Shown here one piece after another: positions 1 through 11,952 of a stretch of DNA of 11,952 bases. Each line of letters begins with the position of its first letter. Position 1 is the stretch's first letter. Both the position numbers and the translations under genes were made by a program. The notes under the pieces are model-generated. The model saw only the letters and a list, made by a program, of their open reading frames with translations, was not told where the DNA came from and searched no databases. Source of the DNA: Betaproteobacteria bacterium (GTDB lineage: Bacteria > Pseudomonadota > Gammaproteobacteria > Burkholderiales > Rhodocyclaceae); assembly GCA_028065725.1 (NCBI GenBank), contig JAPTVL010000109.1, positions 1-11,952 on the forward strand, given 5' to 3'.

Positions 1-1
1 G

Positions 2-97
2 CTGACGCGCGTGGCGCTGCGGCGGGGGTCGCTGGTGGTGAACTCGTCGCAGGGCGGCGGCAGCAAGGATACGTGGATCGTGCAGGGCGTCTGCTGA
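2..97 (+). CDS. C-terminal end of circularly permuted ATP-grasp protein (partial)
   Basis: Only the last 31 codons are in the window, ending at TGA 95-97. The end reads [21 protein letters not shown]; the [12 protein letters not shown] ending is a hallmark of the circularly permuted ATP-grasp family (COG2308 type). These proteins are thought to form amide or peptide bonds using ATP; the substrate is unknown. The stop codon shares its final A with the ATG of the alpha-E gene, the usual partner of this family, so the two are translationally coupled. Nothing can be said about the catalytic core, which lies off the left edge. Identification rests on a short but distinctive tail. Confidence 0.85.
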
Positions 98-1053
98 TGC
101 TGGCCCGCGTCGCCGAGAGCCTGTACTGGATGGCGCGTTATCTCGAACGCGCCGAGGACACTGCGCGCCTCATCAACGCCACCACCATGATGCTGATGGA
201 CATGCCGCGCGGCGCCAGCTTCGGCTGGGAGGATCTGCTGAAAGTGGTGGGCCTCGACGAAGCCTTCCACACGCTGTACGACGAGGCGAGCGAGACTGCG
301 GTGATGAGCTTTCTGATCCAGGACGAGCGCAATCCGTCGTCGATCTTCACCTGCGTGCGCCATGCGCGCGAGAACACCCGTACCTTCCGCGAAGTGCTGC
401 CGCGCGAATCGTGGGAGTGGGTCAACGAACTGTATCTATACGCCAGCACGCACATGACCCAGGCGCTCGACCGGCGCAAGCGCTTCGAAGTGCTGACCGA
501 GATCATCCGGCGACGCCAGGCCGTTGTCGGCCTGCTCGCCGGCACCATGAGCCGCGACGAAGCCTTCCAGTTCATGCGGCTGGGACGCAATGTGGAGCGC
601 GCCGACATGACGACCCGCGTGCTCGACGTCAGCTACGCCATCAACTTGCCGTTCCAGGACAGCCAGTATCACGACCTCATCTGGATGAGCGTGCTGCAGG
701 CCCTGTCGGCGCACCAGATGTACCGTCGTCATGTGGGCGTTCATGCCAAGGGGTACAAGGTGCTGGCCTTCCTGCTCAACGACGTGATGTTCCCGCGCAG
801 CGTGCGCCACTGCCTGCACGAAATCCAGTTTGCCCTGGATGAGCTGCCGGGCGCCGAGCCGATGCGGAGTCTGCAGGGCATGCTCAACCAGGTGGACCGC
901 GCCGATTTCCGCCGGCTTGCCGATCACGGTCTGCATGAATTCTGCGACGACATCCAGGCCCGGCTGGCCGACTTCAACGCAGTCATCGGCCAGACCTGTT
1001 TCCGTGCGGCACATCCGCAAAAAATGACTCAAACCCAGTTCAGCCTCGTGTGA
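97..1053 (+). CDS. alpha-E domain protein (COG2307 family)
   Basis: A 318-residue, all-helical protein. The N-terminus reads [21 protein letters not shown], matching the family opening with its conserved YWMxRYLERAE stretch, and a second ExR-rich segment (FMRLGRNVERADMTTRVLDV) lies near residues 160-180. No signal peptide or membrane segment is visible. The start at 97 is preferred over the in-frame ATG at 73, because it begins exactly at the family N-terminus and overlaps the ATP-grasp stop by one base. Alpha-E proteins almost always accompany ATP-grasp and transglutaminase genes and are predicted to help amide-bond synthesis; their biochemistry is unresolved. The next gene begins four bases after the stop, suggesting one transcript. 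Family assignment is firm; role is inferred. Confidence 0.92.
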   Translation: MLARVAESLYWMARYLERAEDTARLINATTMMLMDMPRGASFGWEDLLKVVGLDEAFHTLYDEASETAVMSFLIQDERNPSSIFTCVRHARENTRTFREVLPRESWEWVNELYLYASTHMTQALDRRKRFEVLTEIIRRRQAVVGLLAGTMSRDEAFQFMRLGRNVERADMTTRVLDVSYAINLPFQDSQYHDLIWMSVLQALSAHQMYRRHVGVHAKGYKVLAFLLNDVMFPRSVRHCLHEIQFALDELPGAEPMRSLQGMLNQVDRADFRRLADHGLHEFCDDIQARLADFNAVIGQTCFRAAHPQKMTQTQFSLV

Positions 1054-1057
1054 ACCC

Positions 1058-2290
1058 ATGACTTCATCACTTGGTTTTGCCCGCGCCGGAGACAAACTGA
1101 ACTCGCCCGCTTTCGAGGACTATCTCGGCCAGCTGCTGGAAGAGCGCGACCGCATCGGGCTCACCGACTGCATCCGCCAGATCGACGCGCTGATGATCAC
1201 CGTCGAGCCTGCGCATTCGCTCGCCTACGTCGCCGAGCTGTGCGTGATGACGCCGTATCACTACCTCGTCACGCTCGAATCGGAATCGCACTTCACCCAC
1301 ATCCTGCGCATCGACATGCGCGCGCCCGACATCCTGGTGCGCGAGGTGAAGGATCCCAACGTGCGCGGCATCTTCCGCAGCCTCAACGAGGTCTATCCCA
1401 TCGGTGCGGTCAAGCCCAACTCGCGCTACATGGGCGAGGTGCTGCGCGTCACCGACCCGCACGCCGTGGTCGACATGCAGAAGGCACGCGACATCCGCTT
1501 CTTCAACCAGGACCAGATCCGCAAGCTCGAACTGCCGGGCAACCTGGCCGTGGTCAAGCCCAGCCCCTACACCCACAACATCGTCGCCTACTGGGAGCGC
1601 CCCGAGGCGGATATCCGCGTCTATGCACTCGGCTGGAGCAGCATCCGCGAAGACATGCAGGTCGCCTACGAAGGTGCCAAGACGACGCAGAAGAAACTCG
1701 GCATCGACGCGCTGCTGCTGCCGATCGACCATCTGGCCACCCGCATCTACAGCCAGAACCGCGAAGCCGCGATCCTCGAATACCTCACCCTGTCGAGCTA
1801 CTACTACTGGGGTTCGTACGACATCTCCGACCAGAATTCCTCGACCAACGTCACCAAGAGCGTGCACATCGAAAACGAGCTCGAATGCCCGGCCAAGGTC
1901 TTCACCGCCGCCAACCACCCGTATTTCATGAACCACCTGCTGATCGAGTCGCCCACCGAAGCCTTCGTGCGCAATTTCGGCCCGCGCCTGCACCACATCG
2001 CCGTGGCGGTGAAGGATGGCGAGACGGCCGGTCTGGCCAATATCGACTTCGTCGTGCAGTCCTTGCGCGACTGCGGGCAGAAATTCCTGCTCGACGTCAT
2101 CGGCTCGAAGGAAGCGGGCCTCAAGCAGATATTCTCCAGCGCGTCGGAGTACTCCTCGCTCATCGTCGAATACGTCCAGCGCTTCGGCGGATTCCAGGGG
2201 TTTTTCACCAAGGACAACGTCGCCGAACTGACCCACGCTGCGGGCGTGGAGGAAAGCCTGAAAGCCTTGCAGCAAAATGCACAGGCGTAG
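1058..2290 (+). CDS. HPPD-like VOC-fold protein, putative Fe(II)-dependent dioxygenase
   Basis: 410 residues, soluble. The C-terminal half resembles the catalytic domain of 4-hydroxyphenylpyruvate dioxygenase (HPPD). IDHLATRI (His225) matches the first metal His, LHHIAVAVKD (His313) the second, and LKQIFSSAS...IVEYVQR (Glu371) the carboxylate ligand, followed by GGFQGFFTKDN like the GFGxGNF tail of HPPD. So a 2-His-1-Glu iron site looks intact. The N-terminal half (about 1-215) is not recognised; in HPPD this is a degenerate VOC domain. It need not act on hydroxyphenylpyruvate: the body of the domain is divergent. It starts four bases after alpha-E, suggesting a role with the ATP-grasp system. 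No clear Shine-Dalgarno precedes the ATG, so translation may be coupled. VOC membership is fairly sure; dioxygenase activity is inferred. Confidence 0.75.
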   Translation: MTSSLGFARAGDKLNSPAFEDYLGQLLEERDRIGLTDCIRQIDALMITVEPAHSLAYVAELCVMTPYHYLVTLESESHFTHILRIDMRAPDILVREVKDPNVRGIFRSLNEVYPIGAVKPNSRYMGEVLRVTDPHAVVDMQKARDIRFFNQDQIRKLELPGNLAVVKPSPYTHNIVAYWERPEADIRVYALGWSSIREDMQVAYEGAKTTQKKLGIDALLLPIDHLATRIYSQNREAAILEYLTLSSYYYWGSYDISDQNSSTNVTKSVHIENELECPAKVFTAANHPYFMNHLLIESPTEAFVRNFGPRLHHIAVAVKDGETAGLANIDFVVQSLRDCGQKFLLDVIGSKEAGLKQIFSSASEYSSLIVEYVQRFGGFQGFFTKDNVAELTHAAGVEESLKALQQNAQA

Positions 2291-2388
2291 TCATACCAAT
2301 GGATTTTTATGCGCAGACACCTCAAGCCGGTGTGCTTGTTGCCGATTAATCAGTAGTTAATTAATTACTCATAATGCGGAGAAAAACG
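2291..2388 (+). promoter_or_regulatory. AT-rich gap, likely promoter region of the small protein/chemoreceptor unit
   Basis: A 98-base gap markedly richer in A+T than its surroundings, including GTTAATTAATTACTCATAAT just before the next gene. ACACC (2317-2321) can pair with GGTGT (2329-2333) over a 7-base loop, but no T tract follows, so it is at best a weak terminator for the dioxygenase-like gene. TTGCCG (2339-2344) could be a -35 element, but no good -10 hexamer sits at the right distance. CATAAT at 2370-2375 is too close to the start codon. A promoter here is inferred from composition and context. Confidence 0.35.
2378..2381 (+). promoter_or_regulatory. ribosome binding site GGAG that decides the start at 2389
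   Basis: GGAG lies seven bases before ATG 2389. It lies inside codons that would follow the alternative in-frame ATG at 2374, which has no Shine-Dalgarno of its own. This favours 2389 as the true start. Confidence 0.6.
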
Positions 2389-2691
2389 ATGGATCGCGAA
2401 ACCCTGAACGAGATGGTGAAACTGAAATTCGGCGCCCGCAAAGCGGGCGGGCCGGAAATCGATCTGGTGAAACTGGCGGCGGATGCCGTCTACGCCGATG
2501 CAACATTGAGCGCAGTCGAAAACCTGCCCGACGAATCGCTGGTGTTGCTGGCGATGACCCTGCGCGATAAGTTCGGTTTGCTCGCGGCGCAACCCGTGGC
2601 CCCCCCCGCTCCAGCCACCCCGGCAGCCGAAGCCAAGCCGGCAGCCGAAGCCAAGCCGGCATCACGCTACATTCTTGGCGCAAGGAGTTAA
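2389..2691 (+). CDS. small hypothetical protein with Ala/Pro/Glu/Lys repeat tail
   Basis: A 100-residue protein that I do not recognise. Residues 1-65 look like a compact helical domain (MDRETLNEMVKLKFGARK, then DLVKLAADAVYADATLSAVENLPDESLVLLAMTLRDKFG). The C-terminus from about 67 is a flexible linker-like stretch (QPVAPPAPATP) followed by two copies of PAAEAK and a short basic end. There is no signal peptide or membrane segment. The stop lies two bases before the chemoreceptor-like gene's ATG, and this gene's last codons carry that gene's ribosome site, so the two are co-translated. A role as adaptor or partner of the chemoreceptor is guesswork from position. The coding call is supported by the ribosome site, high-GC codon use and tight spacing. 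Confidence 0.75.
   Translation: MDRETLNEMVKLKFGARKAGGPEIDLVKLAADAVYADATLSAVENLPDESLVLLAMTLRDKFGLLAAQPVAPPAPATPAAEAKPAAEAKPASRYILGARS
2621..2661 (+). repeat. 18-base tandem repeat, about 2.3 copies, within the small protein gene
   Basis: The unit CGGCAGCCGAAGCCAAGC occurs perfectly at 2621-2638 and 2639-2656, with a 5-base partial third copy. It encodes the PAAEAK repeat in frame, so copy-number change would lengthen or shorten the tail by six residues without breaking the reading frame. Confidence 0.9.
2682..2687 (+). promoter_or_regulatory. strong ribosome binding site AAGGAG for the chemoreceptor-like gene
   Basis: AAGGAG lies six bases before ATG 2694, inside the last codons of the preceding gene. 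It fixes the start of the 373-residue protein. Confidence 0.8.
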
Positions 2692-2693
2692 GC

Positions 2694-3815
2694 ATGCAGC
2701 ATGCTGAAACAAACGTTGTCAGTCTGCACAGGAAGGAAAAGAAATCGGCTGTGGAGAATGCGTCGGCAGAAGAGCATGCCCAACAGATGATCGGCCTGTC
2801 GCAGGGCATGCTCAAGGAGGTTGTCGAGGCCCTCGACAAGATCAAGCGGGTCAATCGAACCATCCATATCCTGTCCATGAATGCCCGCGTGGAAGCGGCG
2901 CGCGCGGGTGAAGCCGGGCGCGGCTTCGCCGTCGTTGCCGAGCACCTTTCCGGGCTGGCCGCTTCGACGGAACAGACGGCCCAGAACATCGAGGACACCT
3001 CCAAGTCGATCACAGGCGAGCTGAATGTCGTGGCCGAACGCCTGTCGAAAGACGTCACGGATAACCGGATGTGCGATCTGGCGCTGAACGCCATTGACCT
3101 GATCGACCGCAATCTCTACGAACGCAGCTGCGACGTGCGCTGGTGGGCGACGGATTCGGCGCTGGTCGAGGCCGCGAAGGATCCGAGCCCGGACAATCTG
3201 CGTTATGTCAGCCAGCGCCTGGGTCAGATTCTCGATTCCTACACCGTCTATTTTGACCTGGTGCTGGCCAATCTCGACGGCCGGGTGATTGCCAACGGGC
3301 GGCCACAGCAGTGGCCGCAGGCACGGGGCGCGAATGCGGCCGGTAGCGAATGGTTCAAGCGCGCGCTGGCGACGCGCAGCGGCACCCAGTTCGGATTCGA
3401 GTCCGTGCATTCCAGCGCGCTGGTGTCCGGCCAGAACGCCCTGGTGTATTCCTGCGTGGTGCGCGAACGTGGCGCGGTCCACGGCAAACCGCTCGGCGTG
3501 CTCGGCATCGTCTTCAATTGGGATGCGCTGGGGCAGGAAACCCTGAAGCGCATCCCGTTATCGAGCCGGGAGGCGAGCGTTACGCGTGCCGTCCTTGCCG
3601 ATGACAGCGGGCGCGTGCTGGCCGATTCGGATCCGCGGCGCATCGGTGAGTCGATTGCGTTCGACGGCAGGGATGTCTTGTTTTCCAAAGCGCGTGGGGC
3701 GACGACTGCGCGCATCGGCGGGAGCATGTGGCGGATAGCCCATGCGAGTTCGCCTGGATTCGAGACCTATGCAACCGGCTGGCACAGCCTGCTGCTGCGG
3801 AAAGCCGATGCCTAA
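2694..3815 (+). CDS. soluble chemoreceptor-like protein: N-terminal MCP hairpin, C-terminal Cache-like sensor
   Basis: 373 residues with no hydrophobic segment long enough to cross a membrane, so cytoplasmic. Residues about 59-89 (ILSMNARVEAARAGEAGRGFAVVAEHL) are the conserved tip of the methyl-accepting chemotaxis protein signalling hairpin, which binds CheA/CheW. The hairpin is short: about residues 25-115 instead of the longer usual bundle. The rest (about 125-365) looks like a Cache/PDC-type sensor: DVRWWATDSALVEAA near 147-161, YFDLVLANLDGRVIANGRP near 186-203, and a second strand-rich part with VLADDSGRVLADSDPRRIG near 300-318. This order is the reverse of classical receptors, in which the sensor precedes the signalling part. 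It is paired with the small upstream gene. The MCP call is firm; the Cache call is moderately sure; the ligand is unknown. Confidence 0.85.
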   Translation: MQHAETNVVSLHRKEKKSAVENASAEEHAQQMIGLSQGMLKEVVEALDKIKRVNRTIHILSMNARVEAARAGEAGRGFAVVAEHLSGLAASTEQTAQNIEDTSKSITGELNVVAERLSKDVTDNRMCDLALNAIDLIDRNLYERSCDVRWWATDSALVEAAKDPSPDNLRYVSQRLGQILDSYTVYFDLVLANLDGRVIANGRPQQWPQARGANAAGSEWFKRALATRSGTQFGFESVHSSALVSGQNALVYSCVVRERGAVHGKPLGVLGIVFNWDALGQETLKRIPLSSREASVTRAVLADDSGRVLADSDPRRIGESIAFDGRDVLFSKARGATTARIGGSMWRIAHASSPGFETYATGWHSLLLRKADA

Positions 3816-3971
3816 GCGTCGAACGGCGGACGAATGTCGTCAGCCCGCATATGTCTGCAGGACAGCCGGCAAGCGTGAATGACGAGGCGTGTGCCTGGTT
3901 TGCGCGACTTGTTGGTGCTCAGATCAGGCATGGCACGTGTGCCCGTGTCATCGATCCCCAGGCGCCGCTCG
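3816..3971. other. convergent intergenic region without a gene
   Basis: The chemoreceptor-like gene (plus) and the smaller transglutaminase gene (minus) both end here. GGCAC (3932-3936) and GTGCC (3939-3943) form a short inverted repeat with only two bases between the arms, too tight for a normal hairpin, and no T tract follows on either strand. I see no convincing terminator and no supported small gene. Confidence 0.5.
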
Positions 3972-4826
3972 TCAAGCCAACTCAGTCACCCATACGCCCA
4001 CATCGAGATTCGCTCCCGGCGGTCCGACAAACGAACCTGCGACCGGGGGCACGGACTCGGGCAGCCTGGCCACCGCGACGGCGATATGACTGCTTCCCAC
4101 GACTTCACCGAGGGTGGGGTCGAATCCCTTCCAGCCTGCGCCAGGCAGAAACACTTCGGCCCAGGCATGGGTCGCACCGAAGTTGACCGTTGAAGGCGGC
4201 GCGTGCAGGTAGCCGCTTACAAAACGCGCGGCGAAGCCCAGGCGTCGCGCTGCTTCCATGAACAGATACGCGGAGTCGCGGCAGGATCCGGTGCCGCGTG
4301 CCAGCGTGTCTGCTGCGGCCTGAACTCCGGGTTCCTCGCGCAGCCGATAGGTCAGCGTCTTCTGGATGCGGACGCACAGACGCTGCAACAGGGCATAGGT
4401 CTGAATTCGTTCGCCCGGCTGCCAAACGGTCTCAAGCCATGCGGTCAGCGGATCCTGGTCCGGGTGCGCGGCGGCGAGCATGTAGGGCGAGAGCAGCATA
4501 CGGTCGTCTGCTCGATGGGAAAACGGATAGTAAGTCGCATCGTCGGCCATCAGAAAGTCGAGGGGAGCCTGGTTGAATTGCTGAATGATGACCTTGCTCT
4601 CGATCAGGAGCTGGCGGGTGACCGAATCGAACGTCGCTGTCGCGACGGAATTGTCCTCCGCGTCGCGATGCCAGCGCAGGGTGGCCGGAGGCGTGATTTC
4701 CAGGCTCGACGATTCGATGCGCAGTTCATGGCCCTCTCTTGGCCGGAGTCGCAGCGTGTGGGGTTCGAGCCGCACCGGCCCGGAAAAGTTGTAGTAGGTG
4801 CGATGAAGAATATTAAAGCGCTGCAT
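3972..4826 (-). CDS. transglutaminase-like cysteine protease family protein (COG1305)
   Basis: 284 residues. Residues 1-80 are the beta-rich bacterial transglutaminase N-terminal region (MQRFNILHRTYYNFSGPVRLEPHTLRLRPR). The papain-like core follows, with all three catalytic residues visible: Cys182 in GSCRDSA, His220 in GATHAWAEV and Asp236 in GFDPT. There is no signal peptide, so it is cytoplasmic. This fold may hydrolyse or transfer amide bonds; in this gene neighbourhood it is predicted to act on the product of the ATP-grasp/alpha-E pair. The ribosome site is weak (TGAGA close to the ATG). The gene stands alone after a 248-base gap rather than joined to alpha-E as is often seen, and ends facing the chemoreceptor gene. 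Family and catalytic triad are clear; the substrate is unknown. Confidence 0.92.
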   Translation of the reverse strand: MQRFNILHRTYYNFSGPVRLEPHTLRLRPREGHELRIESSSLEITPPATLRWHRDAEDNSVATATFDSVTRQLLIESKVIIQQFNQAPLDFLMADDATYYPFSHRADDRMLLSPYMLAAAHPDQDPLTAWLETVWQPGERIQTYALLQRLCVRIQKTLTYRLREEPGVQAAADTLARGTGSCRDSAYLFMEAARRLGFAARFVSGYLHAPPSTVNFGATHAWAEVFLPGAGWKGFDPTLGEVVGSSHIAVAVARLPESVPPVAGSFVGPPGANLDVGVWVTELA

Positions 4827-4848
4827 GTCTCATTTCGCCCGCCCACGC

Positions 4849-4860
4849 CATGGCGCCATG
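4849..4860. repeat. perfect palindrome CATGGCGCCATG upstream of the transglutaminase gene
   Basis: Self-complementary over all 12 bases and centred about 28 bases before the start codon of the minus-strand transglutaminase gene. It could be an operator half or just a short GC-rich palindrome; nothing shows a bound protein. Confidence 0.5.
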
Positions 4861-4863
4861 TCT

Positions 4864-4879
4864 GGGCCGGACGCGGCCC
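4864..4879. repeat. short GC hairpin GGGCCG-GACG-CGGCCC
   Basis: Six perfect pairs around a four-base loop. On the plus strand it is followed by only three Ts, and on the minus strand by no T tract, so terminator function is doubtful. If a promoter lies near 4900, it falls in the transglutaminase 5' leader. Confidence 0.5.
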
Positions 4880-4951
4880 TTTGCGATGGGATTCAGCTTA
4901 TACCCTTGTCTGCCAGGTTCGGGGAACTGTCGCATAAGGCGGCGCCAATCG

Positions 4952-4985
4952 GATCCGTGACGACGTTACGGACTACGCACGGATC
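4952..4985. repeat. inverted repeat GATCCGTG ... CACGGATC with nested dyad
   Basis: Perfect 8-base arms at 4952-4959 and 4978-4985 with an 18-base spacer. Inside and overlapping it is CCGTGACG (4955-4962)/CGTTACGG (4964-4971), a second dyad with one imperfect pair. No T tract follows on either strand. It is more like an operator than a terminator, but no regulator is identified. Confidence 0.45.
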
Positions 4986-5074
4986 AGGCCCGGCCCTGGC
5001 TTTTGACCGACGCCACCGGAATCCTGTCGAGCATCCTGGGCAATTGGACACGGTACGGAAGGCTTTGCGTCAGG

Positions 5075-5133
5075 CTACACATGCAAGGTGTCAATTTCGC
5101 TGTAGGCGTTTTTCAGCCACAGTTTGACGCGCG
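5075..5133 (-). pseudogene. displaced C-terminal tail of the MinD-like gene in another reading frame
   Basis: Read on the minus strand in the frame not used by the MinD-like gene, this stretch encodes VKLWLKNAYSEIDTLHV and stops at TAG 5077-5075. The peptide has the look of a normal amphipathic helical tail, whereas the annotated frame ends abruptly in RQRASNCG. Removing one CG from the run of three CG dinucleotides at 5128-5133 would join ...GILERQR directly to this tail, giving a protein of about 228 residues. This points to a two-base insertion, natural or a sequencing error. I cannot tell which. Confidence 0.55.
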
Positions 5134-5766
5134 TTGCCTTTCCAGAATTCCCAGCGCAGGGGCGTCGCTGCGCTGGGTGGCAGACCAGAAGCTGCTGCTG
5201 TGGCTGTCGATCTTGATCATCGCGGTTTCGTGCAGGCGCCTGATGTTGATGATGCGGGCGTGCAATTCCAGCGCCCGCTGTTTTTCGCCAGAGGCGTCCA
5301 GCAGGTCGAAGTTGTCGCCGCGGATACGGTTCTGCACCAGCACATAGTTCAGGCGCGATTCGAAGCGGTCCAGCAGCTTCTTCAGCAGGTCGACGGAATC
5401 GCGGCCCGAATCCATCACGTGCCAATAGGTGATCGCCAGTCCCAGTTCGCTCGACAACTCCAGCAGATCGGAATCGTCCATCCATTGCGTCAGCGCATCC
5501 TGCGTCTGCGCGGCCAGGTCGACGAGGATGCTGCGGTCGGGATCGGCCGCCGCGGCTTCGACGATGGCGTCGAGGATTTCGGAGCGATCCACGACGACAG
5601 GTGACGCGTAGCCGGCATAAAAGCGCATCAGCGTGCCGTGCGATTTGTCGGTGTCGAAGCCGAGGAAGGAACGTTCGTGATCGATCAGGTACTGCGCGAG
5701 GATGCGCGCGACCAGCGATTTGCCGCCCCCGCCTTTCTCGCCGCCGATAAAGTGGATGTGGGGCAT
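5113..5766 (-). CDS. MinD/ParA-like P-loop NTPase, C-terminus probably frameshifted
   Basis: 217 residues as read. The N-terminus IHFIGGEKGGGGKS (about 4-17) is a deviant Walker A of the ParA/MinD/ArsA class, with the signature Lys11 before the GxGKS lysine (Lys16). FDTDKS at 37-42 fits the switch region with its aspartate, and ILVDLAAQ (80-87) fits Walker B. No membrane segment is seen. Such ATPases dimerise around ATP and usually position or regulate a partner; the partner here is unknown. The gene starts 24 bases after the transglutaminase-DUF2126 stop and so probably shares its transcript. Its C-terminus seems disrupted by a two-base change at 5128-5133 (see the neighbouring entry). Automatic names such as mobilization protein would not be supported. 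The NTPase class is firm; the function is open. Confidence 0.85.
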   Translation of the reverse strand: MPHIHFIGGEKGGGGKSLVARILAQYLIDHERSFLGFDTDKSHGTLMRFYAGYASPVVVDRSEILDAIVEAAAADPDRSILVDLAAQTQDALTQWMDDSDLLELSSELGLAITYWHVMDSGRDSVDLLKKLLDRFESRLNYVLVQNRIRGDNFDLLDASGEKQRALELHARIINIRRLHETAMIKIDSHSSSFWSATQRSDAPALGILERQRASNCG

Positions 5767-5790
5767 GTGATTTTCCGTTGTGGTGAGGCG

Positions 5791-8700
5791 TTAGCGCCGA
5801 CGCAAGTCGAGCGTGTGCGGGAATTCGCCTGCCGGTTCTTCCGGTGGGGGCGCCATCGGCCCCGGCGGCGTACCGCCGGGGAAGAAGCGGGCGAGCGGGG
5901 CGATCCACGGCGGAGGGGTGAAGCTGCCTGCGGTGTGGCCCCAGTCCTGGAAGCGGATGTGGCGGCGCGCTTCGCCTTCCACTGCGTTGACCGGGAAGCG
6001 GTGGTAGCTGCGTCCGCCGGGGTGGACCACGCGGTAGGTGCAGCCGCCGATGACACGGCCGTTCCAGGTGTCGATCAGATCGAATACCAGCGGCGAATGA
6101 ATGCCGATGGTGGGGTGCAAGGCCGACGGCGGCTGCCACGCCCGATAGCGCACGCCGGCGACCGCTTCGCCGTGCACGCCGGTCGGCGCCAACGGCACGC
6201 GGCGGCCGTTGCACGCGAGCACATAGCGGCTGTCGGTGAGGCCATTCACCTTCACTTGCAGGCGCTCTACCGATGAATCGACATAGCGCGCGGTGCCGAG
6301 GCTGGTCGATTCCTCGCCCAGCACATGCCAGGGTTCGATCGCGGTCCGTAGCTCGATCGAAATATCGCCTACCTGCAGGGTGCCATAGCGCGGGAAGCGG
6401 AATTCGAGGAAGGGCCTGTACCAATCGAGCTGGAACGGGAAACCGGCGGCGTCGAGGTCGTCGATCACGTCCTTGAGATCCGTCCACAGATAGTGCGGCA
6501 GCATGTGGCGGTCGTGCAGCAGCGTACCCCAGCGCACCAGCGGCTTGCGGTAGGGCTGCGCCCAGAAGCGCGCAACCAGCGCGCGCAGCAACAGCATCTG
6601 CGCCAGGCTCATGCGCGCGTGCGGCGGCATTTCGAAGGCGCGGAATTCGAGCAGTCCCAGCCGCCCCGGCGTCGAGTCGGGCGAATACAGCTTGTCGATG
6701 CAGAACTCCGAGCGATGGGTGTTGCCGGTGAGGTCGGTCAGCAGGTTGCGCAGCAGGCGGTCGACCAGCCAGGGCTGCGGCGTCTCGCCGGCGGGCATTT
6801 GCTGGAAGGCGATTTCGAGTTCGTACAGACGCTCCGGCCGCCCTTCGTCGACGCGCGGTGCCTGGCTGGTGGGGCCGATGAAAAGGCCCGAAAACAGATA
6901 CGACAGCGACGGGTGGTGCTGCCAGTAGGTGATGAGGCTGGCGAGCAGGTCGGGGCGGCGCAGGAAGGGGCTGTCGGCGGGCGTCGCACCGCCGAGCGTC
7001 ACATGGTTGCCGCCGCCGGTGCCGGCGTGGCGGCCGTCGAGCATGAATTTCTCGGCGGCCAGCCGCGACAGCCGTGCTTCGTCGTAAATCATTGTGGTGG
7101 TGTCCACCAGTTGCTGCCAGCTGTGTGCCGGGTGGATGTTGACCTCGATGACGCCGGGGTCGGGGGTGACCATGAGCTTTTCGATGCGGCTGTCGCCGGG
7201 TGGGGTGTAGCCTTCGATTGTCACCGGCATCTTCAGCAGGGCGGCGGTGGATTCGATGGCTGCCAGCAGGTCAAGGTACTGCTCCAGCGTGGTAGCGGGC
7301 GGTATGAACACGTGCAGGCCGCCGCCGCGCGCCTCGATGCACAGCGCGGTGTGCGGAACCTCCACGGTTTTCTGCGTGGTCGGTGTCTGCGGATGAATCT
7401 CGGGATGGGCGGACGCGGGATCGAGGTGGAGGCTGTAGCGCGCCGCGACTTCGCCGTGAAAATTCGCCAGCGGCGGCTGCAGCGCGAACGGGTCGGCCTC
7501 CACCCACGGTTCGCGCGCGTCCTCTGCCACCCACGGTAGCGAGGCCAGCGGCAGGCGCAGCCCCATCGGCGAATCGCCCGGGGTGAGATAGAGCCGGTCG
7601 CGGCGGAATACCCAGGGCGCGCTGTGCCAGCGCTGTTCGTGCATGCGCCAGGCCAGCGGCAGCACGTAGCCGGTCGGCGTGTTGAGTCCGCGCGACAGCT
7701 TGTTGGCGAGGTCGCAGCGCAGCACCGGATCGCCGAGATCGGCACGCGCCGGATCGAGGTTGGGCGGAAGTTCGGCTTCCTGCTGCAGCGCGGCGAGCGC
7801 GTCTTCGTAAGCCGGCTGCGCATAGCGCGCAGCGAGCCCGAGGTGCTGCGCCAGGGTGGCGGCAAAGCGCTGGGCGTCACCGACGCTGTGGCCATAATCC
7901 CAGTCGGCCTCGGCCAGCAGCGCGTCGTCCTTCCATACCGGCACGCCGTCGCGCCGCCAGTACAGGCCCAGCGCCCAGCGCGGCAGCGGTTCGCCCGGAT
8001 ACCACTTGCCCTGGCCGGTATGCAGCAGCGCCCCGGCCGGCAGTTTTTGCTTCAGCCGCCGCACCAGCACCTCGGCGCGCTCGCGCTTGTGCGTTCCCAG
8101 TGCGTCGATGTTCCATTCCGGTGCATCCATGTCGTCGATGGAGACGAAGGTGGGCTCGCCGCCGTGGGTCAGGCGCACGTCCATCGCCTGCAGTTTCTCG
8201 TCGACAGCGCGCCCGAGCGCCAGCATCGTCTGCCACGCTTCGTCGCTGTAGGGCAGCGTTACCCGCGGGTCTTCGCGGATGCGGGTGACGGTGTTGGAGA
8301 ATTCGAACTCGACCTCGCACGGGTCGGTCATGCCGTCTATCGGCGCGGCGGACGACGGCTGTGGCGTGCAGGCCAGCGGAATGTGGCCTTCGCCGGCGAA
8401 CAGGCCTGAGGTGGGGTCGAGCCCGATCCAGCCGGCACCCGGCAGATAGACTTCGGCCCAGGCGTGCAGGTCGGTGAAGTCGGCCTCCGGCCCGGACGGG
8501 CCGTCGAGGGATTTTTCGTCGGCCGTGAGCTGCACCAGATAGCCCGACACGAAGCGCGCCGCCAGCTCCAGATGACGCAGAATCTGCACCAGCAGCCAGG
8601 CCGTGTCGCGGCAGGAGCCGAGCGCCTTCTCCAGCGTCTCCTCGCAGCTTTGGATACCCGGCTCCATGCGTACGGTGTAGGCGATATCGCGCTGCAGGCG

Positions 8701-9150
8701 CTGATTGAGCGCGACCAGAAAGTCGTTGCTGTGCGCGCGTTCGCGCGGCACCGTGGCCAGCCATGCGGCGAGCCGCGCGCCTGCCGGCTCGGTTTCAAGG
8801 TAGGGCGCGAGCTCGCGTTTCAGCGCCGCATCGTAGTCGAACGGCCAGTACTCTGCGCTGTCCTCGATGAAGTAATCGAAGGGGTTGATCACCGTGAGGT
8901 CGGCGATCACCTCGACGTCGACCGAGAACTCGCGCGTCGCCTCGGGGAACACCAGCCGCGCCAGGTAATTGCCGAACGGATCCTGCTGCCAGTTGATGAA
9001 ATGCTTCTCCGGCGCGATCTTCAGCGTGTAGGCGAGGATGGGCGTGCGCGAATGCGGCGCCGGACGCAGCCGCACCACGTGCGGGCTCAGGGTCACGCGG
9101 CGGTCGAACCTGTAGACGGTGGTGTGGCGAAGCGCGACGTGGATGCTCAT
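5791..9150 (-). CDS. transglutaminase-like / DUF2126 fusion protein
   Basis: 1119 residues. Part one (1-260): transglutaminase N-terminal beta region ([18 protein letters not shown]), then the core with Cys180 (GSCRDTA), His229 (DLHAWAEV) and Asp245 (GLDPT), a complete triad. Part two (about 325-1090): DUF2126 (COG4196), beginning [20 protein letters not shown]. It contains [12 protein letters not shown] (711-721), [14 protein letters not shown] (813-826) and [17 protein letters not shown] (832-848), resembling the nucleotide/metal motifs of glutamine synthetase-type ligases, to which DUF2126 has been linked. So one chain may pair amide-bond making with amide-bond breaking or transfer. The C-terminus is Pro/Gly-rich (about 1079-1108). 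The start is fixed by the family N-terminus, but there is no Shine-Dalgarno; a hairpin lies directly upstream. It lies between Anbu and the MinD-like gene. Confidence 0.93.
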
Positions 9151-9153
9151 GGC

Positions 9154-9179
9154 AACAGACAGGGTGGGGGCTGTCTGTT
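9154..9179 (-). promoter_or_regulatory. 9-bp hairpin directly before the transglutaminase-DUF2126 start codon
   Basis: AACAGACAG (9154-9162) and CTGTCTGTT (9171-9179) are perfect complements around an eight-base, G-rich (C-rich in the RNA) loop. The structure ends three bases before the ATG at 9150, where a ribosome binding site would normally sit, and no Shine-Dalgarno is present. It could block or present the start codon, or act as a DNA operator. Downstream T tract is absent, so it is not a classical terminator. Confidence 0.65.
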
Positions 9180-9215
9180 ACAAGCAAGGGATGAGCCAAG
9201 AGGGTGGGGCAGGAT

Positions 9216-9245
9216 TCAGGGGATGGGCGGCACTGGGCGGGGCAC
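9216..9245 (-). CDS. possible proline-rich 9-residue leader peptide
   Basis: GTG at 9245-9243 opens a nine-codon frame, MPRPVPPIP, ending in TGA 9218-9216. A perfect AAGGAGG (9258-9252) precedes it by six bases. Five of nine residues are proline, including a PP pair, a context that can slow ribosomes. It lies between Anbu and the hairpin before the transglutaminase-DUF2126 gene, so it could be a regulatory leader. The evidence is only position, ribosome site and composition; such a short frame could be chance in GC-rich DNA. Confidence 0.3.
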   Translation of the reverse strand: MPRPVPPIP

Positions 9246-9251
9246 TCCGGG

Positions 9252-9258
9252 CCTCCTT
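9252..9258 (-). promoter_or_regulatory. unusually strong ribosome binding site AAGGAGG with no known gene
   Basis: A perfect seven-base Shine-Dalgarno starts two bases after the Anbu stop, but the next established gene starts about 100 bases further on. The only start codon at suitable spacing opens the proline-rich 9-codon frame. Confidence 0.5.
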
Positions 9259-9260
9259 GT

Positions 9261-10043
9261 TTATCCCTGCATCTGCCCGCTCGTATTGCTCGCCACCACC
9301 TGCAGCGGCTGCGGCTGGTTTTCCCATTCGAAGGGCGGCAGGTTGTTCAGCGCCTGGCGCAGGCCTTCGTTCCAGGCATCGCCCAGCGCACGGTAATAGG
9401 GATGGTCTTCGGAAAACAGCAGGCGGCGGCCGCCGTCGAGCGCGTTGGCAGAATAGATCAGCAGTTCGACCGGCGGGCCGACGGTGAGGTTGGAGCGGAT
9501 GGTCGAGTTGATCGATACCAGTGCGCAGCGGGCGGCCTGTTCGAGCGGGGTGTCGGGGCGGATGACGCGGTCGAGGATGGGCTTGCCGTACTTGGTCTCT
9601 CCGATCTGCAAAAACGGATGCGCAGCCGATTCGTGGATGTGGTTGCCCTGCGGGTAGATCATGTAAATTTCGGGTGTCTGCCCGGCGATCTGGCCGCCGA
9701 AGATGAAGGTGGCCTCGAAGTTGGTGGTGGCGGTGTCGCGCGCGGCCTGGGTGCGCTGTATGTCGGCCGAGATCGAACCGACGTAATCGACCGCGTCGCT
9801 CATCGACGCGATGGTGCTCAGGCATGGCAGGTTGCCGAGCTGGCAGTCGTCGCGCAGCCGCTTCACCACGGCCTGCGTGGTGGCGAGATTGCCGGCGGCC
9901 AGCAGCACGAACATGCGGTTTCCAGGCTGCACGAAGGTGTGCAGCTTGGAATAGGTGCTGACGTGATCGATCCCCGCGTTGGTGAGCGAGTCGGACGCAA
10001 AAACCAGTCCGCTGTCGGTCTTGATGGCAACGCAGTAAGTCAT
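9261..10043 (-). CDS. anbu: Anbu, proteasome-type NTN-hydrolase peptidase (HslV/proteasome homologue)
   Basis: 260 residues beginning MTYCVAIKTDSGLVFASDSLTN, the typical Anbu N-terminus. After removal of Met1, Thr2 would be the N-terminal nucleophile; Asp18 in the FASDS motif and Lys33 in TYSKLHTF match the proteasome Asp17/Lys33 positions. Also visible are LLAAGNLATTQAV (48-60), a family stretch, and ARCALVSINSTIRSNLTVGPPVELLIY (171-197). Anbu forms ring or helical assemblies and is a predicted or weak peptidase; its substrate is unsettled. It normally sits beside ATP-grasp, alpha-E and transglutaminase genes, as here. The longer open frame upstream is rejected, since Thr2 requires this start. 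Seventeen bases separate it from the Cache-membrane gene, suggesting one operon. The ribosome site is weak (GAAGAA). Confidence 0.95.
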   Translation of the reverse strand: MTYCVAIKTDSGLVFASDSLTNAGIDHVSTYSKLHTFVQPGNRMFVLLAAGNLATTQAVVKRLRDDCQLGNLPCLSTIASMSDAVDYVGSISADIQRTQAARDTATTNFEATFIFGGQIAGQTPEIYMIYPQGNHIHESAAHPFLQIGETKYGKPILDRVIRPDTPLEQAARCALVSINSTIRSNLTVGPPVELLIYSANALDGGRRLLFSEDHPYYRALGDAWNEGLRQALNNLPPFEWENQPQPLQVVASNTSGQMQG

Positions 10044-10060
10044 GTCGTGGGGGAAGTTCT

Positions 10061-11044
10061 TCAGTCGGTCTTCATCGTGCCTGTTTTTGGTTTTTGACTC
10101 AAGAGCAATTGTTCTGCGCGTGCCCCAAGGTACACGTACAGGCCCAGTCCGATAAGCAGGCCGACTGCGGCCAGCATCACCCATACGCCGTCCATGACGT
10201 GCTCGCCGTCGCCGACGGCGGATTTGAACATCAGCAGCAGGCCCTCGATCGACACCGCGATCAGGATCGCCGCCATGAAGCGCGTGATGGTGCGGCGAGT
10301 CGAACTGTGGCGATACACGTCCTTGTGCATCAGCACTTCTTCTTCGAGGATGGTTTTGCCGAGATCGAAGACTGCCAGCCCCAGCGTCAGGAAAATGATC
10401 ACGCCAAAGGGTTTCAGATGCAGGTCGGCGGCGGCCTCGGCGGAACCGAATATTTCGGCCAGTTCCTTCAATGCTGCATAGCCCAGCAGCAGCACCACCG
10501 CGAACAGTCCAGCGACGATGACGCTGTATACACTCTTGAAAAACGGCACGAAGCGCTTGCGCGAGGCATCGCCCATCAGGAAAGCCACGGCTTCGGCGAG
10601 GTCGATGTCCAGCACCAGATAACCGGTGTCCTGTCCGCCGCTTTGATTGGGGTGGGCTATACGGACGATGGCGGTGATGCAAAGCAGGCCGCTGGCGTTG
10701 GAGAGATATGGCGCGGTGATCGCCACGCCGTCCGGCCGGTCGTATGCCAGCACGAAATACGGGCGCTGGGCGCGGCTGGCCCCCAGTCCCTGTCCACCGG
10801 CCGGGTGTCCCTTGCGCACCGGCAGGTTGGGCGTGAGCTGCACGCCGGCGGCATCCAGCAAATAAAGCAGATCGATGAAAGGGTAATGGCGACCGGCGCA
10901 GCGCACTGCCTGCCCGCGCGCGCCCGCATCGTCGAACAGCGCGGGGCTGGCGATGCCGGTGACGATGGACCCGATCAACTCATCCAGCGCGTGACGGTAT
11001 TCTTCATAGCGTTCGATGACGGCAAGCGTGCTGGGACTCGCCAT
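10061..11044 (-). CDS. Cache/PDC-like sensor protein with four C-terminal membrane segments
   Basis: 327 residues. Residues 1-30 form a charged helix (VIERYEEYRHALDELIGSI), and about 50-150 resemble a Cache/PDC sensor fold (PFIDLLYLLDAAGVQLTPN; RPYFVLAYDRPDGVAITAPYLS; GYLVLDIDL). Hydrophobic segments follow at about 171-191, 212-228, 255-272 and 287-308. No kinase, cyclase or MCP output domain is present and there is no N-terminal membrane anchor, so the sensor-like part may face the cytoplasm. The start at 11044 is chosen because it lies seven bases after the ATPase stop; translation upstream of it in this frame overlaps the ATPase and is Arg/Trp/Cys-rich nonsense. It lies between an ABC transporter and Anbu. 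It may sense the transported solute or couple to Anbu; function is not known. Confidence 0.75.
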   Translation of the reverse strand: MASPSTLAVIERYEEYRHALDELIGSIVTGIASPALFDDAGARGQAVRCAGRHYPFIDLLYLLDAAGVQLTPNLPVRKGHPAGGQGLGASRAQRPYFVLAYDRPDGVAITAPYLSNASGLLCITAIVRIAHPNQSGGQDTGYLVLDIDLAEAVAFLMGDASRKRFVPFFKSVYSVIVAGLFAVVLLLGYAALKELAEIFGSAEAAADLHLKPFGVIIFLTLGLAVFDLGKTILEEEVLMHKDVYRHSSTRRTITRFMAAILIAVSIEGLLLMFKSAVGDGEHVMDGVWVMLAAVGLLIGLGLYVYLGARAEQLLLSQKPKTGTMKTD

Positions 11045-11051
11045 GCGTGGA

Positions 11052-11849
11052 TCAGGCCGCCTCTTTCGGCCGCATTTGGCGGCTGTACAGGAATTCCAGC
11101 ACCCGGCTGCGCAGGTCGTGGTAGTGCGGATCGTGCGCCAGCGCCAGACGGTCGCGCGGACGCGCCAAGTCGACGCTGAGAATCTCGCCGATGGTGGCGG
11201 CCGGACCATTGGTCATCATCACGATGCGGTCGGACAGCAGCACTGCTTCGTCGACGTCGTGGGTGACCATGATGACCGTGCTCTTGGTTGTAGCGACGAT
11301 CTTCATCAGTTCGTCCTGCAGGTGGGCGCGGGTCAGGGCGTCCAGTGCGCCGAAGGGCTCGTCCATCAGCAGCACTTTCGGCTCCATCGCCAGCGCGCGC
11401 GCGATGCCGACGCGCTGCTTCATGCCGCCGGAGATTTCGCCCGGCAGCTTGGCCGCGGCGTGGGTCAGCCCCACCAGTTCCAGCGCGGCCTGGGTGCGTG
11501 CCTTCAGCTGTTTTTTCGATTCGCTGCCGCCGAAGACTTTTTCCACCGCAAGGTAGACATTCTCGAATGCGGTGAGCCAGGGCAGCAGTGAATGGTTCTG
11601 GAACACCACCCCGCGTTCCGGCCCCGGCCCATTGATCTCCTTGTTGGCAAGCAGCAGTACGCCGCCGGTGGCGTCGAGCAGACCGGCCACCAGGTTGAGC
11701 AGCGTCGACTTGCCGCAGCCGGAATGGCCGATCAGTGCGATGAACTCGCCCTGATCGACATGGAGATTGATGTCGGTGAGCGCGGTGAACTTGCCTTTTT
11801 TGGTGCTGAACACCATGCCGGCGTTCTCGATCTGGACGTAGCTTTGCAT
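11052..11849 (-). CDS. nitrate/taurine-type ABC transporter ATP-binding protein (NrtD-like)
   Basis: 265 residues with the full ABC ATPase set: Walker A GHSGCGKST (41-49), Q-loop Gln84 in VVFQNHSLLPW, signature ISGGMKQR (139-146), Walker B VLLMDEP (159-165) and H-loop His197 in VTHD. The FQNHSLLPWLTAFENV stretch and SGGMKQR signature fit the nitrate/nitrite (NrtD) branch of the SsuB/TauB/NrtD group; sulfonate or another anion cannot be excluded without the binding protein. The start at 11849 has GGGAG six bases upstream; an in-frame upstream ATG (11888) would overlap the permease gene and add 13 residues unlike the family. It follows the permease stop by 13 bases and precedes the Cache-membrane gene by seven. 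Confidence 0.88.
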   Translation of the reverse strand: MQSYVQIENAGMVFSTKKGKFTALTDINLHVDQGEFIALIGHSGCGKSTLLNLVAGLLDATGGVLLLANKEINGPGPERGVVFQNHSLLPWLTAFENVYLAVEKVFGGSESKKQLKARTQAALELVGLTHAAAKLPGEISGGMKQRVGIARALAMEPKVLLMDEPFGALDALTRAHLQDELMKIVATTKSTVIMVTHDVDEAVLLSDRIVMMTNGPAATIGEILSVDLARPRDRLALAHDPHYHDLRSRVLEFLYSRQMRPKEAA

Positions 11850-11855
11850 GTTTGA

Positions 11856-11860
11856 CTCCC
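11856..11860 (-). promoter_or_regulatory. ribosome binding site GGGAG for the ABC ATPase
   Basis: GGGAG on the minus strand lies six bases before ATG 11849 and supports the shorter start of the ATPase. Confidence 0.6.
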
Positions 11861-11862
11861 AA

Positions 11863-11952
11863 TCAATCGTAGCTGAAACGTTTCGCAATCAGCATCAGCA
11901 GCTGTTCGAGCAGCAGTCCGACGATGCCGACGACGAAGATGGCGATGATGAT
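11863..11952 (-). CDS. C-terminal end of ABC transporter permease (NrtB-like, partial)
   Basis: The last 29 codons of a gene that continues beyond the right edge. The peptide IIIAIFVVGIVGLLLEQLLMLIAKRFSYD is a hydrophobic final membrane helix followed by a short basic tail, the usual ending of nitrate/sulfonate-type permeases. It stops 13 bases before the ATPase gene in the same direction, as expected of one transport operon. The substrate cannot be deduced from this fragment. Confidence 0.8.
   Translation of the reverse strand: MIIAIFVVGIVGLLLEQLLMLIAKRFSYD

Follow-up and report, generated by a model that had tools for sequence, protein, structure and literature searches.

A candidate Fe(II) oxygenase family of the HPPD fold encoded beside the ATP-grasp/alpha-E amide module

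The physiological role and substrates of the bacterial amide module that combines ATP-grasp, alpha-E, transglutaminase, DUF2126 and Anbu proteins are described as unconfirmed (PMC5666114, PMC6376114). Nitrogen is the recurrent theme. Anbu is cited as upregulated in Pseudomonas putida under nitrogen limitation (PMC5666114) and as highly expressed in nitrogen starvation (PMC6376114), a DUF403/404/407/transglutaminase cluster of Burkholderia cenocepacia is NtrC- and sigma-54-dependent (PMC5491218), and marine metagenomes show an association of these domains with those of urea metabolism (PMC3597751). The accessible text of three accounts of the module (PMC5666114, PMC6376114, PMC3597751) names no oxygenase, and the word 'dioxygenase' occurs 0 times in that of PMC5666114; in a literature search with Iyer et al. 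2009 and most subscription papers outside its reach, no enzyme of the 4-hydroxyphenylpyruvate dioxygenase (HPPD) type was linked to the module. The Rlo operon of Pseudomonas, as far as its accessible description goes (PMC12239564), was discounted as belonging to another kind of ATP-grasp/transglutaminase system. Here we analyze a window of 11,952 nucleotides, positions 1 to 11,952 of the forward strand of contig JAPTVL010000109.1 (betaproteobacterial assembly GCA_028065725.1), in which a gene for a protein of predicted HPPD fold lies behind alpha-E.

Our main conclusion, to which we give a probability of about 0.6, is that this protein represents a new, unnamed family of Fe(II) oxygenases with the HPPD fold (vicinal oxygen chelate, or VOC, superfamily), acting as an accessory enzyme of the amide module. 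The fold itself is already known; it is the sequence family that has no name in the libraries searched. No Pfam and no NCBIfam model matched the protein at E 0.1, PHROGs gave weak matches of which the best was the unnamed phrog_7003 (E 0.0052), and named relatives among the matches listed are 'hypothetical', 'uncharacterized' or 'conserved hypothetical' throughout. The family numbers at least 2,451 protein clusters at a threshold of E 0.001, scoring having covered the 7,998 candidates with the most shared words. Pairwise identity is at least 65% among 32 chosen members and at least 62% among 150 chosen for diversity. The closest relative, 97% identical, is encoded by a Hydrogenophilales metagenome-assembled genome (MAG; locus L001), and locus records often name Proteobacteria, among them Thiobacillus, Acidithiobacillus, Halothiobacillus, Gallionellaceae, Methylotenera, Methylomonas and Zetaproteobacteria. 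Such taxa are often sulfur or iron oxidisers, or methylotrophs.

The kinship to HPPD is seen in both profile and fold comparisons. When the family was aligned profile to profile (hhalign) with a set of 8 bacterial HPPDs, the match covered residues 221-394 and scored 32.6; none of 100 controls with permuted columns reached this score (maximum 26.6, mean 17.1). The original prediction had placed His225, His313 and Glu371 at metal-ligand positions, and the alignment bears this out, each of the three being matched to its counterpart in the HPPD triad (L087 numbering in the table below); Asn286, Gln357, Gln374 and Arg375 likewise match residues that all or almost all of the 8 HPPDs share, and HPPD-like QIF, E..QR and GF motifs are in register. 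The equivalent positions in the Pseudomonas fluorescens HPPD structure 1cjx, counted from the alignment, are H161, H240 and E322, the residues that bind iron. Among the fold matches listed for the predicted structure, the best are HPPD and 4-hydroxymandelate synthase (HMS), both 2-oxo-acid oxygenases, matched over their whole length at about 10-20% identity to the solved HPPDs and HMSs; HglS and extradiol dioxygenases are not among the VIA matches listed and may rank below them. The likeness had initially been assigned to the C-terminal domain. That part stands, but the confinement to one domain does not: in the model the fold spans nearly the whole protein, both domains included, with residues 28-404 aligned to HPPD 3isq by VIA, a range that takes in residues 39-180 of the N-terminal part. 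The predicted paired beta-alpha-beta modules have the HPPD-type arrangement, as is characteristic of the VOC superfamily, and the triad residues are carried on model strands E220-229, E312-318 and E369-375. (An earlier model built from 32 close sequences reached a predicted local distance difference test score, pLDDT, of 55 and was not used.) By computation, then, the protein has an HPPD-like fold, and the near-invariant residues of its triad lie on the strands expected for them; Fe(II) binding, catalysis and substrate are what we infer.

Two readings of this fold can be weighed directly. The protein could be a true HPPD of tyrosine catabolism, producing homogentisate and adjoining the module incidentally. 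It has the HPPD fold and triad, and a curated-level HPPD (TIGR01263 above cut-off) was found in just 1 of 22 carrier genomes tested, so that replacement is conceivable; however, neither TIGR01263 nor any other NCBIfam model matches at E 0.1, the one positive carrier (G001) has both enzymes, identity to solved HPPDs and HMSs is low, and of ten window proteins scanned the eight with a Pfam match include none of the homogentisate pathway. We consider this highly improbable, and on the first two of these grounds we do not name the family HPPD. A catalytically dead VOC protein, acting as a sensor or scaffold, would agree with the extreme conservation of the whole protein (mean column identity 76% over 146 sequences), which could reflect protein contacts; yet 363, 363 and 362 of 363 aligned sequences retain the three triad residues, and we regard a dead protein as very unlikely. 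Arg229 and Gln357 are invariant in the same 363. Also invariant there are His81 and His173 of the N-terminal half (window codons 1298-1300 and 1574-1576), which could conceivably belong to a second site, for metal or for substrate.

Arg229 lies four residues past the first His, in the DHLATR of the window protein. The 8 HPPDs compared carry DHLTHN or DHVTHN at this place and none has DHxAxR, which is a further point against a true HPPD. DHxAxR is present in 2 of 3 PF07063 proteins (L097 and L099, not L098) and in the solved hydroxyglutarate synthase 6w1k, presumably FLO7, where the Arg of the motif is at position 63. HglS uses Arg74 to bind the distal carboxylate of 2-oxoadipate and loses its activity when this residue is changed (R74A), and the substrate-binding Arg64 of FLO7 occupies nearly the same place (PMC7286885). 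Because position 63 of 6w1k compares with Arg64 of FLO7, the Arg of DHxAxR is probably, judging from sequence, the substrate-binding Arg of HglS and FLO7; and since Arg229 sits like this HglS-type residue, the analogy suggests that the substrate may be an acidic or otherwise charged 2-oxo acid. HglS was considered as the closest family on account of this motif, and its profile match proved weaker than that of HPPD, although with three rows in the PF07063 alignment this comparison carries limited weight; PF07063 was matched neither by the window protein (E 0.1) nor by the 32 members (E 1).

The association of the oxygenase with the module is real. We searched 80 loci, the best 80 of 207 genome stretches encoding oxygenase relatives, with the window proteins and the L001 ATP-grasp; these loci, like the genomes sampled below, are phylogenetically clustered, and counts are not independent trials. 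A gene for ATP-grasp, alpha-E, DUF2126 or Anbu lies within 500 bp of the oxygenase gene in 59 of the 80, and in 46 of the 62 whose flanks each reach 3 kb or more; the remaining 21, some of them short, have no module gene anywhere in the locus. The refuting condition set by the original prediction, homologues mostly found away from ATP-grasp/alpha-E genes, did not hold in this survey. In the window the gene follows alpha-E, whose start codon overlaps the ATP-grasp stop, after the predicted four-base gap; of the ATP-grasp gene itself only the C-terminal end falls in the window, and a complete counterpart, with the same C-terminal end, is found in L001 at 5592-7043 (the original prediction names the type COG2308). 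Alpha-E stands upstream on the same strand in 46 linked loci, 6 of which also have DUF2126 downstream, and DUF2126, Anbu or ATP-grasp adjoins the oxygenase gene in the other 13. The gap to alpha-E, taken between tblastn match ends, is 0-15 bp in 21 of the 51 loci with a same-strand upstream alpha-E. In a quick tree built from the 80 proteins (77 labelled rows for arrangement, 3 with too little flank being omitted), arrangement needs 15 changes, where the minimum is 5 and the shuffled mean 28.7, so that gene arrangements also track kinship; the linked versus unlinked state needs 8. Support is modest: stars fall on 21 of the 76 inner branches, and fewer changes are required when these branches are taken by themselves (for example, 3 for the group with alpha-E upstream and 5 for the unlinked group). 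Six stand-alone loci shared no neighbor by eye in lists of open reading frames (ORFs), on which no family search was run.

Association also extends beyond physical linkage. In the 21 genomes with an unlinked oxygenase, alpha-E is present in 20 and DUF2126 in 20. An even draw of 249 Pseudomonadota genomes, which includes two carriers known beforehand (the centre G001, and G006), had the oxygenase in 6, alpha-E in 132 and DUF2126 in 70; the 6 matches were at E 8.9e-156 or better, with no intermediate homologues down to 1e-3. All 6 carriers have alpha-E and 4 of them DUF2126. The oxygenase nearly always accompanies alpha-E, and most alpha-E genomes are without it; because alpha-E is far commoner, we count the oxygenase as an accessory of the module and not among its core components.

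Regulatory sites point in the same direction. The sigma-54 consensus is TGGCACG-N4-TTGC, and we scored sites of at least 9/11, with GG and GC required, within 150 nt upstream; NtrC-like palindromes had to reach at least 10/12. Each gene entered once for every locus, as its best match, expectations came from shuffles, and genes whose upstream region ran off the locus were left out (ATP-grasp 3/57, alpha-E 2/57, DUF2126 7/37, Anbu 1/21, transglutaminase 2/35, oxygenase 0/80). Sigma-54-type sites precede ATP-grasp in 40 of 54 usable loci (0.94 expected), 14 of them perfect (0.01 expected), and alpha-E, inside the operon, in 0 of 55. They also precede DUF2126 (6/30, 0.43 expected), Anbu (6/20, 0.35) and transglutaminase (5/33, 0.63). 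Where the oxygenase gene is first in its unit, with no module gene just upstream, 6 of 27 copies have such a site against 0.38 expected, all at -50 to -61 (L060, L061, L065, L074, L076 and L077; L060 and L077 are very short contigs), and L058, classed as in-operon, has a sigma-54-like score of 10 at -53. For NtrC-like palindromes the counts are 17 of 54 ahead of ATP-grasp (1.27 expected) and 0 of 55 ahead of alpha-E. Together with the published NtrC control of such a cluster, these sites point to a nitrogen-limitation regulon. They tie the oxygenase to the regulation of the module, not yet to its chemistry. The linkage might reflect co-regulation, within the same regulon, of a separate pathway with no common product. 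The oxygenase is stand-alone in 18 of 77 loci with usable flanks; among these, L061 carries a sigma-54-like site scoring 9 ahead of the oxygenase gene, and L065, L074 and L076, first in their units with other module genes alongside, have sites of their own as well. Against a separate pathway are the many loci in which alpha-E and the oxygenase are only a few bases apart, the attachment of the oxygenase to different module genes in different lineages, and the retention of alpha-E and of DUF2126 in nearly all unlinked genomes; we judge it rather unlikely.

For an accessory oxygenase of the module, the following scheme can be proposed. Fe(II) would be held by His225, His313 and Glu371, and a 2-oxo acid would chelate it bidentately; O2 would be activated, and the same molecule decarboxylated and hydroxylated, as in HMS or HglS, while a further, acidic group of the substrate would be bound by Arg229. 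The amide made by the module under nitrogen limitation would then either take up the oxidised acid as a building block or yield it on breakdown. The data hint at oxidation as part of the function of the module, and the oxygenase may make the building block or tailor the amide product, as initially suggested. A wider proposal, which we advance tentatively and hold to be possible rather than probable, is that this family of Fe(II) 2-oxo-acid oxygenases is built into a nitrogen-controlled module, and that in lithotrophs and methylotrophs this module makes or recycles an undescribed oxidised amide, which may for example contain an alpha-hydroxy acid.

Several observations weigh against an accessory oxygenase of HPPD kinship. 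The hhalign probability to HPPD is just 15% (P 0.0017), a marginal sequence kinship; both family HMMER profiles found no PDB sequence, for which reason kinship was taken from profile-profile and fold comparison, and the window protein alone gave one unrelated-looking PDB match (E 0.39). As to distribution, 126 of 132 alpha-E genomes have no oxygenase, two of the 6 carriers (G001 and G116) have no DUF2126, the oxygenase of G116 is about 126 kb from alpha-E, and G301, a MAG of completeness not shown, has neither alpha-E nor DUF2126. As to regulation, 21 of 27 first-in-unit oxygenase genes have no site of at least 9 and 19 of 27 none of at least 8, no sigma-54-like site of at least 8 was seen in the Acidithiobacillus copies inspected (L042, L044, L051, L055 and L079), and NtrC-like sites ahead of the oxygenase are weak (2/29, 0.58 expected). 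Finally, 17 of 32 members match the Glyoxalase_4 model weakly (best E 0.012; the window protein not at all). This trace of a general family would suit a VOC enzyme that serves the module by other chemistry, whether extradiol cleavage, an epimerase or glyoxalase type of reaction, or another metal, and a His-His-Glu site is common to several VOC enzymes; but the whole-length fold matches listed belong to the HPPD/HMS group of 2-oxo-acid oxygenases and the HPPD-like motifs are in register, so that other chemistry appears unlikely.

Table 1. Features of the window and of the putative oxygenase; fractions of 363 refer to aligned family sequences
Feature	Coordinates	Strand	Basis
ATP-grasp C-terminal end, circularly permuted, truncated by window edge	~2..97	+	Read directly from sequence
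Alpha-E gene	97..1053	+	Pfam PF04168, E 2.1e-84; listed ORF 73-1053
HPPD-fold putative Fe(II) oxygenase, 410 aa	1058..2290	+	ATG 1058, stop ends 2290
Predicted HPPD-like fold, N-terminal part, residues 39-180, two beta-alpha-beta modules	1172..1597	+	Model strands and helices
Predicted catalytic-domain core, residues 220-385, two beta-alpha-beta modules	1715..2212	+	Model; hhalign residues 221-394 against HPPD
His225, predicted metal ligand 1	1730..1732	+	363/363; aligned to HPPD H161 of L087
Arg229, motif DHxAxR	1742..1744	+	363/363; apparent place of substrate-binding Arg in HglS-type enzymes
His313, predicted metal ligand 2	1994..1996	+	363/363; aligned to HPPD H239 of L087
Gln357, aligned to conserved Gln in HPPD LLQIF motif	2126..2128	+	363/363
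Glu371, predicted metal ligand 3	2168..2170	+	362/363, one Asp; aligned to HPPD E319 of L087
Transglutaminase-like gene, module partner	3972..4826	-	PF08379 and PF01841
Transglutaminase-DUF2126 amidoligase fusion, module partner	5791..9150	-	PF09899, 1326.8 bits
Sigma-54-like -24/-12 site, 33 bases ahead of DUF2126 start codon	9184..9198	-	Score 9/11
Anbu, proteasome-like module partner	9261..10043	-	PF00227, E 3.6e-9

Other genes of the window lie between and around these features. Downstream of the oxygenase on the plus strand are a 105-residue protein without Pfam match (2374-2691), relatives of which recur before or after the cluster in several Thiobacillus-type loci, and a protein in which Pfam recognizes chemotaxis-signalling and Cache domains (2694-3815). 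On the minus strand, a small ParA/TraL-like ATPase (5113-5766; TraL-type model E 1.3e-9, below cut-off) adjoins DUF2126; its relatives occur in 10 of the 80 loci, and the one in L037 is the immediate neighbor of the oxygenase gene. A Cache-like sensor protein (10061-11041, minus strand; sub-threshold dCache_1 match) lies between Anbu and the ATPase of a nitrate-type ABC transporter (11052-11952, minus strand; TIGR01184, 342.5 bits, above cut-off), which has an apparent permease end beside it at the window edge and shares its minus-strand run with Anbu and DUF2126. A nitrate-type transporter near these two genes fits the nitrogen theme.

The module is widespread, as its alpha-E counts indicate, and an oxygenase that travels with it offers a chemical handle: with a single protein, O2 use on candidate 2-oxo acids, the loading of metal and the effect of ligand mutations can be assayed. 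The product of the oxygenase would lead towards the metabolite of the module, the sigma-54-type sites indicate nitrogen shortage as the time to look, and the HPPD fold gains an unnamed branch. Among known systems, HPPD (TIGR01263) resembles the oxygenase in the fold of both domains and, at the sequence level, in two His and one Glu at the ligand positions. The oxygenase differs from it in being about 16% identical to 3isq, in leaving the curated HPPD model unmatched, in being about 60 residues longer than bacterial HPPDs (about 350 residues), in having Arg instead of Asn four residues past the first His, and in its own near-invariant motifs and amide-module neighborhood. It is about 17% identical to HMS (2r5v), an enzyme known from antibiotic-type pathways. 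With HglS/DUF1338 (PF07063) it shares DHxAxR, and the profile match is weaker (24.6 versus 32.6 for HPPD). As for the ATP-grasp/alpha-E/DUF2126 module, the window contains alpha-E, transglutaminase, DUF2126, Anbu and the end of an ATP-grasp gene.
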